NCBI RefSeq assembly: GCF_032884065.1
Contig: NC_088866.1
Span: 47,961,490 to 48,025,489, forward strand
Source of the DNA: Artemia franciscana
Lineage: Eukaryota; Arthropoda; Branchiopoda; Anostraca; Artemiidae
Length of the DNA: 64,000 nucleotides
Direction of reading: 5' to 3'
Shown: piece by piece, positions 1-52,932 of the stretch
Numbering within the stretch: position 1 is the first letter of the stretch
Layout: every line of letters begins with the position of its first letter
The notes under the pieces: generated by a model
What the model was told of the DNA's origin: nothing
Database searches by the model: none
What the model saw: the letters and a program-made list of their open reading frames with translations, nothing else
Program-made: the position numbers and the translations under genes

Positions 1-277
1 TATGCCAGTATTTTTTAGCATCAGCCAACCATGGTTGTTATTGTTCTAGTACCAGAAATTAATCTTCTATATCTTCTTATTTGCTCTCGTTCTCACATGT
101 TTTGACTCCCTTTGCTCTCACAATTTGTTGTTCTATCCTTATTTCCTATTATTCCTCTATCACTCTCTGTTTGCTTAGAATTCCTTTATTTCTAGGATTA
201 ATAATCTAATAAAAAAGCAACCATGACAGTTGTAGCTCTAGTACCTGAAGTTTTTCTACACTTATTTAATCTACCAT

Positions 278-435
278 CAAGGCCGTTTGAGGTTTACTGG
301 GATTAACCCCCCCCCCCCCTCCAAAAACATTTTATCCGACTTGTAAAAATGCATATAAACAAATTTTTTTATGTGTTTTTTTAATCATTTTTATTATAAA
401 AACTTCCCAAACAATATCCTGGATTCAAGCTTGTC
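278..435. repeat. C-rich dispersed repeat fragment
   Basis: The segment has a 13-C run followed by A-rich and T-rich sequence and a TGCATATAAACAAATTTTT motif. It lengthens one unit of the surrounding exon array from about 180 to 352 bp. A related arrangement (C run, A run, TGCATGTAAACAAATTTT) occurs at 36900-37025. It looks like a fragment of a small non-autonomous element; no coding capacity is seen. Confidence 0.45.
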
Positions 436-1199
436 TACCATCATTTTTCCGTTTTTATTCGTTTCTTGTCTCGCTATTTATTTTCTATCCTTGATTCTAT
501 CCCTGCTTTTATTGTTGTCTGCTTGTTTAGGATGCCTTGATTTTTAGGCTTTAGAATCTGACCATGATAGGTATAGCCCTAGTACCCAGAAATGTTTCTT
601 ATTATGTTTTTGATCTGTTGTAACTCTCTTGTTTTTACTCCTTTGTATTTCACTGTTCATTTTTCTATCTTTATCTATATATATTCCTCCATCATTTTCT
701 GTTTGTTTATAATTACTTTATTTTTAGGCTTTAGACTTTAAGGACAAAGCAACCATGACAGTCGTAGTTCTAGTACGAGAAGCTATTCTATATCTATTCC
801 ATTTATCATATTCCCGTTTTTAATTCTTTTTTCTCTCACAGATTCTTCTTCCATCTTTTTCTATTTTTGTTTTATCGTTTTTTTGTGTGTATGACTCATC
901 GATTTTTAGGCTGTAGAATCTAATAACGCGGTATTCGTGAAAGTGGTAGCTCTAGTATCGGAAGTTATGCTTCTTTTTCTCTTCTATTTTGATTTCTATT
1001 CATTATTCCTTTATTTTGTGTTTCCAAACGCAAGGACAAAGTAAAATTGACAGCCGTAGCTTTAGTACTAGCTCCTTGTACTAGCTCCTTACAAGGAGAT
1101 ATTCTATATCCTTGTAAATTAATATTATTTTCCAGCATTGATTTCTTCTTGCTCTCTCTATTTGTTATTCGTTGTTTGTTTATATTTTTTATTCTATAA

Positions 1200-2220
1200 T
1201 TTTTTTTTTCTTTCGGCGTAGTAGGTGCAACACTACCATTAGGAGGGTAAGCTCCTGGTAGTGGTGAAACAGGGTACTGTTTCACTAAATAAGTGAAATA
1301 AAGCTCTTGAAATACAGTTTTTGACTGCTAAAACCACTGCTTGCTTCATTGTTGGATAAATATACCAACTTACCAATGGGCTTACATACTATCCAAATGA
1401 GAATAGCTATAGGCTGTAATTGTAGGCTAGTATCTAAAGCCTGAAACTATCGGGAAAATCTTGGGATTGGAATTATTCCCAATAGTTACTACCGTCTCTT
1501 GGCATGTCTTAAAAACTATCTTTGACTTTTTCGCTCTGTCAGGCTAGAGTAAAGGTGTACGTACATGGTTATAACTGAGCAGAACTTATGCCTGGAGGTG
1601 ACCTCCCCCCTTTAATCCCTGATATGGTAGCTCCTTGGTATCATCCCTGCCAAAGAATAATAAAACTTGGGGTTCAGTAATCCGAAATTAAACAAAATTG
1701 TAATCTTACGGTATCTACAGCCCTGGCCAGGAAACAGGGTTAAAAGTATGCAGTAATGCGAAAAAATAACGCGCTCCAATTGCCATGACATGATGCTAGT
1801 GACCAATTGGGAATTCCCACGACCTGTTTGCATAATCTACCAAAATAGTGATTGGTGGAAGAGAACGCAGGGTCTAATTTTAGTCTGTTAATAATTTGTT
1901 CTGAGCAACTGAGGAAAGGTGACTTATTCTTTGCAGTCAAAATGCCTAATTTTAATCACACAGTCAAGTCAGGTTAAAGGTGATTTACTTTTGCAATTAA
2001 TAATTGTCTGTCATGTGATCATAAGAAATTAAGGGAAAGGGGACATTAATCTGACAAATACTCGGGTCAACCAGCACGCCTTCACTAAAATAAATCGCCA
2101 TATTTACGTCGTTCTTTTCCTAAAAATGAAAGAAAATCACAAAACCTGAAATCTTAAATTGTACAACTTCCGAATCTTCTGATATCATTCTCATGTATTT
2201 ATTTCTTCTTATTTCCACTT
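1200..2220. other. Non-genic interval interrupting the exon array
   Basis: About 1 kb of ordinary AT-rich sequence separates the decayed array copy near 1034 from the copy at 2294. I see no conserved protein motif, RNA gene or recognisable repeat in it. It may be an old insertion into the array. Confidence 0.5.
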
Positions 2221-2477
2221 TGTATTGCCCCATCTTTATCTCTATTTATTCTTTCGTCCTTCTTTATCTATTTATGATTCGTTTGTTTTTTACGCATTAG
2301 ATTATACCGATAAAGCAATCGAGATAGTGTTAGCTATAGTACCGGAAATTATTTTTCTTTTTAATATGCTTTCTTTCTCCTCTATTTATTCCTTCTCACT
2401 TTGCCTATTTATTATTCTCTCTTTTTCTGTCGATGCATTCATCTTTGTCTGTTTGTTTATGATTTCCTTATCTTTAG

Positions 2478-2663
2478 GCATTAGATTCTAATGAGAAAGC
2501 AACCATGACAGTCGTTGCTCAAGTACCAGAAGTTGCTGATGATTCGGCATCAGACAGTAATGATAGCAGTGATGATTATGACTTTGATGATGACGACGAT
2601 GACGATTTTCGCGTTGACCATATCACACAATCTAAGGATTTAGAGTGGGATCAATCCCTCTAA
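2478..2663 (+). CDS. Terminal exon of an unidentified gene with acidic C-terminus
   Basis: A TTATCTTTAG acceptor ends at 2477, and the exon reads open for 61 codons to a TAA at 2661-2663. It begins ALDSNEKATMTVVAQVPEV, continues with an Asp/Ser-rich tract and a run of about seven Asp, and ends DLEWDQSL. The start is chosen by the splice acceptor and by the seven upstream degenerate copies, which share only the first 60 or so bases; only this copy continues into the acidic tail and stop. Upstream exons must lie left of the window. I do not recognise the family. An acidic C-terminal tail is common in nucleic-acid-binding and chaperone-type proteins, but no function is claimed. The clean frame, acceptor and stop argue for a real exon; the amplified junction in front of it could affect acceptor choice. 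Confidence 0.6.
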   Translation, partial: ALDSNEKATMTVVAQVPEVADDSASDSNDSSDDYDFDDDDDDDFRVDHITQSKDLEWDQSL

Positions 2664-3345
2664 TTTTTATAACAATCATATTTTGACAAATCAGTATTTT
2701 CATTTTATTGTGTTCTTTGATCATTTGGTGGTAGTGTTAAGCTTGAATTTTAATTATAACTTAGAGACGGTTTAAGGGCGAATTTTTGTCGTCATTTTGC
2801 CAGTATGTCTTTAGTGTTGGGTTTTTCTTCTTCTTTTTTCTTAGAACATTATCCATCCAAATTTTGAGTTCTTTATTGTTTTGATTGTTAGAATTTCTTT
2901 TATATTGTTAAATTTCTAATCACTGAAAATGTGATATTTCATTTTAATTCGTCCTTTGAGAATCGGTGTAAAGTTTTAGTTCAACTTGGTTAAACAATTT
3001 GATTTCTCTTTGTAAAAAAAGAAAGAGTTTATGTTTTTCCCACACATTACTTGGATTATTGTATTGTACATGATTTTCATTTAACTTTGAATGAATTTTA
3101 GTATAGTTTAATATAACGAGAAAACCTTCACCTAAATAATGAGAAAACCTTCAGCCACTAAAACCTGTCCGTAGAAAACTTTAAATTACACTTTCAATAG
3201 GAAAAGAGCTAAAAAAAAATTACTATCTCTTGCCTTCCAGGTAGTGAGAGAAGGGTGTATGCAGCTATTTCCACGGGAATCATCTGAAGAACTCTTGCTA
3301 CAGTGTATTTGGTTGATCTAAAGGGTGTAAATGATTTTTTATAGA
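2664..3345 (+). other. Probable 3' untranslated region and flank
   Basis: AT-rich sequence downstream of the stop codon at 2663. No canonical AATAAA is obvious close by. No protein or RNA signature is seen. Confidence 0.35.
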
Positions 3346-48510: not shown

Positions 48511-48655
48511 TGAAATGAACTTATTGCTTGCTTTTGCTTATATATTAATGCTAATGCTTGTGTGCTTGCTTGCAGTTGCCTTATTATGCTTTTGTTACAG
48601 GTGCTTGGGTCAAATATACGTATCAACTGAATAGTACATCAAAGAAATCATTGCA
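48511..48655 (+). repeat. 5' LTR (145 bp)
   Basis: Begins TGAAATGAACTTATTGCTTG and ends AAGAAATCATTGCA; preceded by target repeat CTGAG. Confidence 0.93.
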
Positions 48656-48667
48656 TGGTGTCAGAAG
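48656..48667 (+). promoter_or_regulatory. Primer-binding site, tRNA-Leu type
   Basis: TGGTGTCAGAAG starts immediately after the LTR and is complementary to the 3' end (CTTCTGACACCA) of animal tRNA-Leu(CAG/AAG). The match ends after 12 bases. Confidence 0.8.
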
Positions 48668-48673
48668 TTCAAC

Positions 48674-50032
48674 ATGGATAGTACACCAGCTCCATCAATC
48701 AACTGGTCAAGCCCCAACCTAAAATCAGAATGGAGAAAATTTAAGAGACATTATGAGCTCATGTTTTCTGGTCTACTAAGTGGAAAATCAGATGCAGTGA
48801 AATGCTCATACTTACTGATCTGGACTGGAGAAAAAGGACAGGATGTGTTCTCCACTTGGACCTTAACTGACGCGGAGGCAAACAAGCCAAAAGTATATCT
48901 AAACAAGTTCGAGAATTATATTCAGCCAAGTGCAAACCCCATCTTTGCCAAATATATCTTTCATCAGAGAAATCAAGCGGATGGAGAGATCATTGAGTCA
49001 TATGTCACTCAGTTGAAAGTACTTGCCAAGGATTGTGAATTTGATACCCTAGAAGACCAGCTAGTTCGAGGTTGGTTGGTCTTTGGAGTCAAGAATGCAA
49101 GAATCCGTGAGCGGCTTCTCAGTGAGGGAGCCACACTTACATTGGCTAGAGCAATTGAGTGCAGTCGAGCTATAGAAACTGTGCAAGAGACCCAAGCACT
49201 CATGCTTAACGAACAGGCGCACATTCCAATTAAGCAGGAGGTGGAAGTGGTTCAAAGACAGAAGAATTCCCCTGCCTGCTATTTCTGCGCTGGCCCATAC
49301 TCAAGAAGTCATAAGTGCCCAGCAAAAGGGAATCAGTGCAGCAAATGCAGGAAGATAAACCATTTTGCCAAAATGCGCAAGAGCAAAGTAGTACATGAAC
49401 TTGAAACAAGAAGCGAAGTGGAAGATGGGAGAGAATTCATGATTGAGTCCATTTCCACAGAAGAAAAGGTGGAAAAGCCTTATGCTCTCATAAAACTGAC
49501 AGAAAACGAGAGTGAACTGGCGTTCAAGATAGACACTGATGCCAAGGCCAATATTTTGCCACTCAAAGACTTCAACAAATTGGCAAGAAAGCCAGCACTG
49601 CTGCCGACTGCTGATATGCTGACCAGCTACACCGGAGAACAGCTAAAGGTACTGGGGACAGCCAACCTAAAAGTTCAGTACAAGAACCAAACCCCCCAGA
49701 TCCATACCTTCCATGTAGTCTGCACAGATAGAGCACCCATCCTCAGCCGCCAGTCCAGTGAACGACTTCAGCTGATCAAGTTTGTCCTCAGTGTCAGCAA
49801 GCCAGCCCCAATCAGACCAGTCATCCAAAAACTCTTAAACGAATTCAGTGTAGTCTTCGAGGGCATAGGGACACTGCCTGGAACCTGCAAAATATATCTG
49901 AAAGAGGGTGCAATCCCTACTATGCAACCGCCAAAACGGGTTCCTTTTGCACTACAAGCTAAGTTCAAAGAGGAGTTAGACAGACTGGGGTCACTTGGAG
50001 TCATAGAAAAAGTGACCAAGCCAACACAGTAG
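48674..50032 (+). pseudogene. Gypsy gag-protease-RT N-terminal frame
   Basis: 452 codons from ATG 48674, 7 nt after the primer site, to a TAG at 50030. Residues 1-190 are a capsid-like domain (YIFHQRNQADGEIIESYV, LKVLAKDCEF). Two zinc knuckles lie at about 203-238; the second (CSKCRKINHFAKMR) has Arg where the final Cys belongs. The protease active site at residues 287-289 (nt 49532-49540) reads Asp-Thr-Asp instead of Asp-Thr-Gly. The frame then enters the RT entry segment (IPTMQPPKRVPFALQAKFKE). The terminating TAG falls where gypsy RTs have a conserved Trp before VNSLV, so this is a nonsense mutation and not a natural end. Two active-site losses plus the stop mean the polyprotein is inactive. 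Confidence 0.88.
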
Positions 50033-51010
50033 GTGAATTCCTTGGTTCTGTTGAGAAAGGCAGATGGGTCACTCAGGATCTGTTTGGACCCTGTTGATTT
50101 AAACAGAGCAATTGAGAGACCGCATTACCCTATTCCCTTATTTGATGAAGTAGCAGCAAGTGCAAAGGTGCAAAGAAGTTCTTTAAGATGGATGCCCGAA
50201 ATGGATACTGGTCGATGGTGTTGGACAAACCATCCTCTGAGTTGACAACATTCAACACCATTACGGCCGGTATAAATGGAACCGATACCCATTCGGATTG
50301 ATTTCGGCGCAGGACGAATACCAGCGAAAGATGGAGGAAGTCTTTACAGAACTGGATATCGGGCTGATTGTTGATGATATTGCAGGCATTGGTTGTAGTG
50401 ATGCTGAACATGACGCCAAGCTGAGGGCAGTACTCCAAGCCGCAAGAGACAAGGGAGTGCGGTTCAACAAAGAAAAATGTGTTTTTGACACTACTTCCAT
50501 CACCTACTTTGGACACAGACTGACAACAAGCGGCATCGCCCTAGACCCAGAGAAAACCCAGGCATTAAAAAACATGCCCGCACCCCAAAACCAGGAGGAA
50601 CTACAGAAATTATTAGGAATGTACAATTACATGTCTAGATACATCCCCAACCTGGCTACTCTGAACAAACCCCTCAGAGACCTGTCCAAACAGCAGAAGT
50701 TCGAATGGAATACAAGCCACAAGGAGGCCAAGAGAGGGATTCAGAATGCAATCTCCGAAAACCTCTCCTACTTTGATCCAGAGGCCATGAGATAGAGGTG
50801 ATCACAGATGCTTCCCAGCATGGTCTGGGTGCCCAGCTATCAATGGACGAAGCAACCGTTGCTTTTGCATCTTGCTCTCTAAGTGAGACAGAGCAGCGTT
50901 ACTCCCAAATGGAAAAAGATATGCTCGCAATAACCTTTGCTTGCAAAAGATTTCACCAGTATCTGTTTGGAAGAACGATATGCATGACCACAGACCACAA
51001 GCCTCTTTAG
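50033..51010 (+). pseudogene. Gypsy reverse transcriptase and RNase H, broken
   Basis: Begins VNSLVLLRKADGSLRICLDP, DLNRAIERPHYPIP. A frameshift near 50170 moves the conserved FKMDARNGYW segment to another frame, and a second frame change occurs near 50260. From 50298 the frame is open: ISAQDEYQRKMEEVF, the catalytic box as IVDDIAGIG (Asp-Asp retained), FGHRLTTSGI, then the connection domain. A TAG at 50793 precedes the RNase H start ITDASQHGLGAQLS, SETEQRYSQMEKDMLAITFA and TTDHKPL, which ends in a TAG at 51008. Confidence 0.85.
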
Positions 51011-52932
51011 TTGATCTTTGGAAAGTCTATACAAAGGGCACCTCCAAGGCTGCAGTGAATGATGTTGGCTATTCAGCCATATGATATCAAGCTTAGATAC
51101 AAACCTGGAAAGACTATCCCTGTAGCGGACACCCTGTCCCGCTTGCACCTTGCGGATACAGACATTGAGTCGCAGGTAGACGTGGAAATTCTGGTTCACT
51201 CAGTCCTTCAAACTGTACCCATAGCAAGCCAAAGGCTAGCACAAATACGTAGAGAAACGACTAAAGACGAAACACTGAACTCCCTATTGGAAACAATACA
51301 AGTGGGTTGGCCAAACAATAAAAAGAGCCTAGACAGAAAACTTGGGCCCTTCTGGAATTATCGTCATGAGTTGGCAGAACTTGATGGCCTTGTTGTTAAA
51401 GGGGAGCGCATAGTCATCCAGATGCATGAGAGCAGGCATATTAGGCCAATTACACTCTTCCCATCTTGGAATGGCGAACGTCTGTATTCTGGCCAGGCAT
51501 CACTCGAGATATAGAGAGGCTGGTCAACCAGTGCGAGGTATACGCCAAGTTTGCCATGAACCAACAGAAGGAGCCGATGATCCTGCACAAAATACCCGAC
51601 TACCCATTCCAGCATGTAGCTGCTGAACCTGTTCCAGCTCATCGGACAGGATTACATGGTCACTGTCAATTACATGAGTCGGTTCTTTGAGGTTGATCGC
51701 CTGACAAACACCACGTCACGGCAGGTCATCAACAAACTGCAATCTCACTTCGTCCGATATGGGATTCCCGAGCGACTTACAACTGACAATGGCCCCCAGT
51801 TCAGCGCAAAGGAATTTCAGCAATTCATGACTGACTGGGGAATAATACACTCAAGCCCAAACTACCCTCAGTCCAACAGCTTAAGTGAAAAGGCAACAGA
51901 AGGAGCCGATGATCCTGCACAAAATACCCGACTACCCATTCCAGCATGTAGCTGCTGAACCTGTTCCAGCTCATCGGACAGGATTACATGGTCACTGTCA
52001 ATTACATGAGTCGGTTCTTTGAGGTTGATCGCCTGACAAACACCACGTCACGGCAGGTCATCAACAAACTGAAATCTCACTTCGTCCGATATGGGATTCC
52101 CAAGCGACTTACAACTGACAATGGCCCCCAGTTCAGCGCAAAGGAATTTCAGCAATTCATGACTGACTGGGGAATAATACACTCAAGCCCAAACTACCCT
52201 CAGTCCAACGGCTTAAGTGAAAAGGCTGTTCAAATAGCTAAAAGACTCCTGGTGGAGGCCGCTGAGAGCAAGAGTGACCCGTATCTGGCACTATTGGAGT
52301 ATCGGAACACACCCATTGATGGATTTGCCCCGGCTCAAATAATGGTGGGACGCCAACTGAGATTACTCCTGCCCAGCATCACACAAACTATGCAACCAGG
52401 AGCCTTCCAATTTGACTGATTCAGACAACAGAGGGAGAAGGCCCAAGAGGCACAAGGCAAACACTATAATCAGCATGCAAGGAATATGGAACCACTGAAA
52501 ATGGGTCAGAAAGTACGGGTCCAGTTGGCTGACCAGGGAACCTGGAAGAAGGCAACAGTTTGCAAGACTGGCGACAGCCCTTGTTCTTACTATGTGCGTC
52601 TCGAAGAAGGAGGGACGTTCCGCCGCAACAGAATACACATTAAATCAAGACAAAACCCGATGGTGACTGACCTGCACGATGGTGCTAGTTGCCAAGTCGA
52701 AACTTCGAGCGTCTTGCCATCGAAGAATGTTCCCGATCCCTTAGTTGATTTTCAAGAGACTACGGACCCCCCTACAGTGGAGTCTCCAACACCAAAGCAA
52801 GGTGTCACAAACAAAGAGGCGGAGGCCACGGATCCGGCTCAGGCAGAGCAGATTAACCATTCGTTCTGGTCGTCAGGTGAAACCCCCAACAAAGTTGAAT
52901 TTGTAGAAAAGAAGGGAGATGGAATGAATTGA
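51011..52932 (+). pseudogene. Gypsy integrase region with internal duplication
   Basis: From about 51059: LAIQPYDIKLRYKPGKTIPV and ADTLSRLHLADTD (RNase H/integrase linker). The HHCC zinc-binding area reads MHESRHIRPITLF. After a frame change come WPGITRDIERLVNQCEVYAK and FAMNQQKEPMILHKIPDYPF. The catalytic core (VTVNYMSRFFEVDRL, TTDNGPQFSAKEFQQF, SPNYPQSNGLSEKA) occurs twice because of a 332-bp tandem duplication (51562-51893 and 51894-52225). Then come LLEYRNTPIDGFAPAQIMVG and, after a TGA at 52417-52419, the C-terminal MKMGQKVRV-type barrel (MEPLKMGQKVRVQLADQGTW, 52486-52650) and a diverged tail. The duplication length is not a multiple of three, so it shifts the frame. Confidence 0.85.
51562..52225 (+). 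repeat. 332-bp tandem duplication in the integrase core
   Basis: Two abutting copies (51562-51893, 51894-52225). By eye they differ at about three positions: GCGACTT context GAG/AAG, CTGCAATC/CTGAAATC and CCAACAGC/CCAACGGC. A short CAACA/GGC similarity at the junction fits slippage or recombination. Confidence 0.9.

Follow-up and report, generated by a model that had tools for sequence, protein, structure and literature searches.

Several copies of a 3' splice junction lie in tandem ahead of a last exon at the left end of a 64,000-nucleotide stretch of Artemia franciscana DNA (the window; NC_088866.1, positions 47,961,490 to 48,025,489 of the forward strand), and the question they pose is whether such copies serve splicing or are a by-product of duplication. 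An initial annotation had counted about eight tandem copies before the last exon and a profile search agrees with that count, finding eight junction units of ~180 bp each in the window, seven of them decoys (five fuller and two partial) and the last the true junction. The window matches ranged from E 1.6e-42 to 0.0055 (12.7-141.7 bits) and a further nine were found in a second, inverted version of the locus; the profile was built from seven of the window units and one unit of the inverted version, and the scores of those seven are therefore by construction. As a control, 50 first-order Markov sequences modelled on window positions 1-2700 yielded 8 matches at E<=10, the best reaching 4.2 bits. 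Independently of the profile, blastn with the true unit alone (a 270-base query) recovered decoys, with E from 5e-27 to 4e-10 and some weaker.

Alignment of the units illustrates that the duplicated segment spans the intron-exon boundary. Each of the fuller units runs from a pyrimidine-rich intron stretch through the acceptor position into the first ~57 bases of the terminal exon, which bears out the earlier description of the repeating unit as the junction itself, and recurring features include a GTTTATGATT-like segment ~20 bases 5' of the junction and, in most units, TTTTTAG. All units lie on the plus strand. The first is partial and is represented by its exon-like part at 19-60 (profile match 26-68, nhmmer E 0.0055), followed by unit 2 at 83-260 (acceptor 195/196, E 1.1e-39), unit 3 at 436-599 (acceptor 547/548, E 9.6e-33), the exon part of which is 11 bases shorter than the others, unit 4 at 614-790 (acceptor 727/728, E 1.6e-42), unit 5 at 803-973 (acceptor 909/910, E 4.5e-35), the truncated unit 6 at 976-1071 (E 2e-14) and unit 8 at 2178-2357 (E 3.9e-37). 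Next, at 2365-2477, come the last intron's pyrimidine tract and its true 3' splice site, placed by alignment and profile (true-junction unit 2365-2542), and the terminal exon occupies 2478-2663 on the plus strand. The array is not continuous: it is broken by a stretch unrelated to the unit at 261-435, present in both versions, and by ~1.1 kb of unrelated sequence at 1072-2177, which is in part dispersed-element-like.

The second copy of the array lies inverted at about C4:48197316-48200150 (coordinates prefixed C4, and those of the arms, are contig positions), 233 kb away, and has one unit more than the window. It belongs to a larger inverted pair in which the window arm at 47961120-48054293 is homologous to 48104340-48200553, the principal collinear segments being ~92.6-99.8% identical. 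The comparison covered the outermost 15 kb, two 10-kb pieces (at 48135000 and 48115000) and the innermost 1.7 kb, with kilobase-sized length differences lying between these parts. This inverted homology of 93-96 kb is bounded by two 100-N gaps, at C4:47961020-47961119 and 48104240-48104339, and at both outer ends it starts at the first base past the gap (47961120 and 48104340). Because the homology starts at scaffold gaps on both sides, and because an exon upstream of the array was found once in the genome, the two versions are best read as haplotypes of one locus, one overlapping contig having been placed backwards. A true inverted segmental duplication, of which the window would hold a truncated 3' end duplicate of the gene rather than an allele, might be proposed on the grounds that both versions lie within one 63-Mb assembled contig; however it is unlikely given that homology beginning directly after the 100-N gaps is the pattern expected of overlapping contigs, one of them backwards, and given the single upstream exon. 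The scaffold gaps thus explain the geometry of the inverted pair, and a search of 10 kb at its midpoint found no perfect hairpin. With the two versions read as haplotypes, it would probably be a mistake to annotate them as two genes, and genes of the window may have been annotated twice. Elsewhere in the window, frames resembling gag-pol retroelement fragments by eye occupy 48635-52932, within which a 332-bp stretch occurs twice in tandem (51562-52226, 99% matches), and an open frame at 60608-61225 matches PF02598, a putative RNA methyltransferase (E 1e-29).

The identity of the gene emerges from the inverted version. The window starts 370 bases past a 100-N scaffold gap, which cuts the upstream exons off from the window array, whereas in the inverted version an exon encoding a hydrophobic segment and a MAWDDMALNITVNPLE motif lies on the same strand 3.7 kb upstream of the last exon (C4:48201175-48201372). 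This transmembrane and first-WD exon ends in phase 0 (GAG|GT), and the terminal exon of the window is one open phase-0 frame of 61 codons and a TAA, with an acidic tail and a second WD motif, LEWDQS(L). Joined together, the last two exons match the Pfam family PF19699 (CLSTN_C) at E 1.3e-18 and 67.5 bits (cut-off 27), the match ending in the upstream exon. Three CLSTN_C matches over the cut-off are collinear on the minus strand, two of them extending across a TAG beyond the open exon, and a separate CLSTN_C search of the upstream pieces scored one piece above the cut-off (49.5 bits) and another below it (19.8). PDB searches that used either the tail by itself or the two final exons joined gave weak matches only (best E 6 and 2.7). 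The Pfam family UBA_E1_SCCH was considered, as it weakly matched the tail alone (E 0.22) and the joined exons (E 0.029, below the cut-off), and was rejected because the upstream exon identified calsyntenin. Left of the window and across the scaffold gap, inspection by eye revealed no upstream calsyntenin exons; reverse-transcriptase-like frames were recognised there by eye, and ~41 kb left of the window an open frame matches the annexin repeat (PF00191, E 3.3e-8).

The locus shares with calsyntenin, alcadein and CASY-1 a CLSTN_C domain, a hydrophobic segment, a WD motif, an acidic stretch and a C-terminal WD motif. Read from the sequence, the two WD motifs that flank the acidic stretch are MAWDDM and LEWDQS, each of which deviates from the strict kinesin-light-chain-binding consensus L/M-E/D-W-D-D-S as it is given for calsyntenin in PMC2829069. 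That report also states that mutation of either WD motif cuts KLC1 binding to 30%, and in CASY-1 an acidic region is described as flanked by two WDDS motifs (PMC5864096). Judged by its domain match and motifs, the exons further upstream having been sampled through CLSTN_C alone, the gene at the array is a single-copy calsyntenin and the array lies in its last intron.

If the units were a dispersed satellite or transposon holding splice-like sequence by chance, they should recur beyond this gene, and the initial annotation had named alignment to an unrelated genome-wide satellite as the finding that would overturn its reading. Array queries of 370 and 535 bases were compared with the 1.27-Gb genome in a search that skipped very common words and scored the best candidates alone; 5/5 and 6/6 matches respectively fell in the locus or its inverted version and none elsewhere, and at this sensitivity an origin as a satellite of that kind is rejected. 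The 3' part of the unit is moreover the coding start of the last exon. One element of this kind does probably reside inside the array, at 1215-2175 (ends approximate), since 20 further weak genome matches to parts of ~1277-1954 are spread over eight contigs at 65-87% identity; as this stretch is common to both versions it was inserted before they split. For the units themselves we consider an origin as dispersed repeats the least probable of the explanations weighed here.

The acceptors of the decoys differ from unit to unit and between the versions. In the window AG occupies the acceptor place in 5/7 decoys (units 1-5) and is absent from units 6 and 8, whereas in the other version it is present in 4/8 decoys, the extra unit counted, with units 4 and 5 also lacking it (GG and CG respectively in place of AG). 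Unit 1 retains an intact AG in both versions. In neither version does the truncated unit 6 have an AG at the aligned place, near 1025 in the window, and in both versions unit 8 has AC at the acceptor place, so that site 2294 in the window follows AC (TTTTTTAC|GCA) and the next AG ends at 2300, entering another frame. The reading frames vary as well, with 28, one, 21, 31 and 44 open codons in units 1 to 5 of the window. Unit 8 is open for 65 codons (63 from 2300) but has no AG through which to enter that frame. Unit 2 of the other version stops at codon 2 again and unit 4, which there carries a 26-column insertion, is broken with 10 codons. Earlier the copies at 728, 910 and 2294 had been put forward as remaining open in the terminal-exon frame, which holds for all three (31, 44 and 65 codons) although the last of them has AC in place of the AG. 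The inclusion of 196 among the candidate junctions fared worse, for it has its AG but its frame runs through a single D into a stop at the second codon. None of the decoys carries the tail. As had been proposed, the last copy alone has it, and 2478-2663 fits the last exon of calsyntenin.

Donor and polyadenylation signals did not discriminate between the copies because the true donor is equally modest and hexamers are missing after the true stop. The best GT context of each of six decoys (units 1-5 and 8) matches 5-6/9 positions of the donor consensus and all contexts 4-6/9, and the true upstream donor, GAG|GTTGGT, matches 6/9 by the same consensus. Canonical AATAAA and ATTAAA were absent from the 837 bases after the true stop and occur sporadically in the array.

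Comparison of the two versions provides a view of how the units have evolved. Between versions the decoy exon parts differ at 17/370 positions, noncoding sequence at 95/2328 and the true exon at 2/186, both differences in the latter being synonymous; unit 4 contributes 6/58 including an ill-aligned insertion, and the noncoding sum excludes the 3' UTR at 2664-2755 (1/92) and 1071-1214. The decoy exons show no conservation between the two versions and differ about as much as noncoding sequence does (Fisher p 0.67), whereas the true exon differs from the decoys (p 0.044) and from noncoding sequence (p 0.045), a contrast that is modest and involves few substitutions in segments picked by the analyst. 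The last decoy together with the true splice site (2171-2477) shows 5/307 differences between versions (p 0.015, for a region picked post hoc), which may reflect constraint from the adjoining true splice site or a younger shared ancestor.

Among the units, divergence between decoys is 0.316 for the exon portion as compared with 0.363 for the intron portion, and that of decoys from the true copy is 0.260 and 0.333 respectively (in both cases with the truncated unit 6 left out and the partial unit 1 absent from the alignment). Against the true copy the differences at codon positions 1, 2 and 3 number 25, 36 and 45 of ~128, summed over seven decoys that are not independent, while over all unit pairs they are even at 0.288, 0.320 and 0.291. 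Such a third-position excess is expected over the true copy's own constrained history, yet it gives no support for pure decay. Units differ from one another by ~30% and the versions by ~4%, and every unit of the window is matched by its counterpart in the other version, so that there is no sign of recent homogenisation. In the other version one additional 191-bp stretch follows position 473 and holds a further unit. As this unit is no less diverged than the others, the window is best taken to have lost it through deletion between similar tracts (CTATTT stands at both ends). Intronic minisatellites are arrays of head-to-tail units, the number of which differs between versions. The present array is likewise head-to-tail and varies in unit number between versions but differs from them in that its unit includes a 3' splice site together with a coding exon start, and in that the units, ~30% apart, show no sign of having been homogenised of late. 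The suggestion made at the outset that a minisatellite-like array simply happens to span a junction is the reading best supported by these data.

These observations bear directly on the possibility that the decoys act as alternative 3' splice sites. Their use would yield a calsyntenin with a short unrelated tail, lacking the acidic stretch and second WD motif and having lower kinesin-light-chain binding, with the normal 3' end supplied by retained downstream sequence. The AG at 5/7 window decoys and the 28, 21, 31 and 44 open codons that follow 19, 548, 728 and 910 would permit this, and the third-position excess of the decoys against the true copy is in keeping with it, as are the reduction in KLC1 binding to 30% on WD-motif mutation reported in PMC2829069 and the WD-acidic-WD layout that CASY-1 shares in the description of PMC5864096. 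Set against these points, 728 and 910 lose their AG in the other version, the frame of unit 4 is broken there, 196 stops at codon 2 in both versions, and the divergence of the decoys between versions resembles that of noncoding DNA. We therefore regard this reading as unlikely, and the earlier suggestion that the copies could give C-terminal variants is not supported as regards useful ones, since decoy exons diverge at the intron rate and acceptors and one whole unit differ between versions. A more speculative extension, to which we attach a still lower probability, is that working decoy acceptors segregate among the haplotypes, with the result that individuals would differ in their share of tail-less calsyntenin without the second kinesin-binding motif, and that the loss of AG (units 4 and 5 in one version, 6 and 8 in both) would represent selection silencing the decoys successively.

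Tandem duplication across an intron-exon boundary is already known. In the potato RdRp gene one junction-crossing tandem duplication is described as the source of a functional new intron whose donor is GTAAG, the duplicated segment comprising, as here, the end of an intron (branch site, pyrimidine tract and acceptor) and the start of the next exon (PMC4974935), and some new Drosophila introns are reported to have probably arisen from tandem duplications within coding sequence (PMC2891723). In our locus, as compared with the potato case in that account, the units number eight or nine and lie at a terminal exon, no strong donor was seen among them and they are decaying. By analogy the units might be nascent cassette exons or introns, present or past, taking a CTA|GTACN donor from the copied exon as in intron gain. 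The potato segment likewise crosses the junction and draws its donor from the copied exonic bit (PMC4974935), and in unit 728 CTA|GT comes 45 bases after the acceptor, a distance divisible by three. This we consider very improbable, as CTA|GTACN matches 4-5/9 donor positions where listed (the true donor also being modest) and as the units are old, being ~30% apart, and show no sign of exon constraint between versions. The pip gene of Drosophila, with its tandem mutually exclusive terminal exons in clusters described as spliced (PMC9013439), resembles our locus in having about eight homologous tandem units at the 3' end of a gene, and differs from it, as far as that description goes, in that the tail is missing from the present units, which show no conservation between versions. 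Among the open-licence papers listed by literature searches, none deals with such a junction array in calsyntenin. The initial annotation knew of no named system matching the array; that stands for calsyntenin among the papers listed and falls for junction-crossing duplication as such, given the potato gene as described in PMC4974935. Eight to nine decaying copies of a last-exon junction that differ between versions are thus a variant not seen among the open-licence papers listed.

The explanation that we judge probable is that of an old junction-crossing tandem duplication, since interrupted and now in decay, the intact last exon being the one to which the transcript is spliced. A ~180 bp segment comprising the pyrimidine tract, the 3' splice site and the first ~57 exon bases would have undergone tandem duplication, with unequal exchange between similar tracts, or slippage between them, as the probable mechanism, and the array would have grown to at least nine units before being broken up by other sequence, in part a dispersed element. 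The extra units appear now to be decaying at about the neutral rate while unit number is still changing, the window haplotype seemingly having lost one unit, and the transmembrane exon is most likely spliced to the last copy, the sole one kept as coding with a tail. Counting against this explanation are the third-position excess of the decoys over the true copy, the donor and polyadenylation signals that fail to discriminate, the low difference at 2171-2477, and the AG that five window decoys keep, two of them (728 and 910) with 31 and 44 open codons. The array, the gene in which it lies, the copy-number and acceptor differences between versions and the neutral-like divergence of the decoys are direct observations. 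Taken with the sequence comparisons above, this locus-specific structure is most likely what tandem duplication left behind, now in decay, and not a device for splicing.

As a natural record, the array documents the fate of a splice site that has seven or eight of its own copies just upstream, together with the shrinkage and decay of such an array. If the decoys are ignored in RNA, the calsyntenin locus of Artemia would offer a natural test of what, beyond a pyrimidine tract and an AG, defines a last exon.
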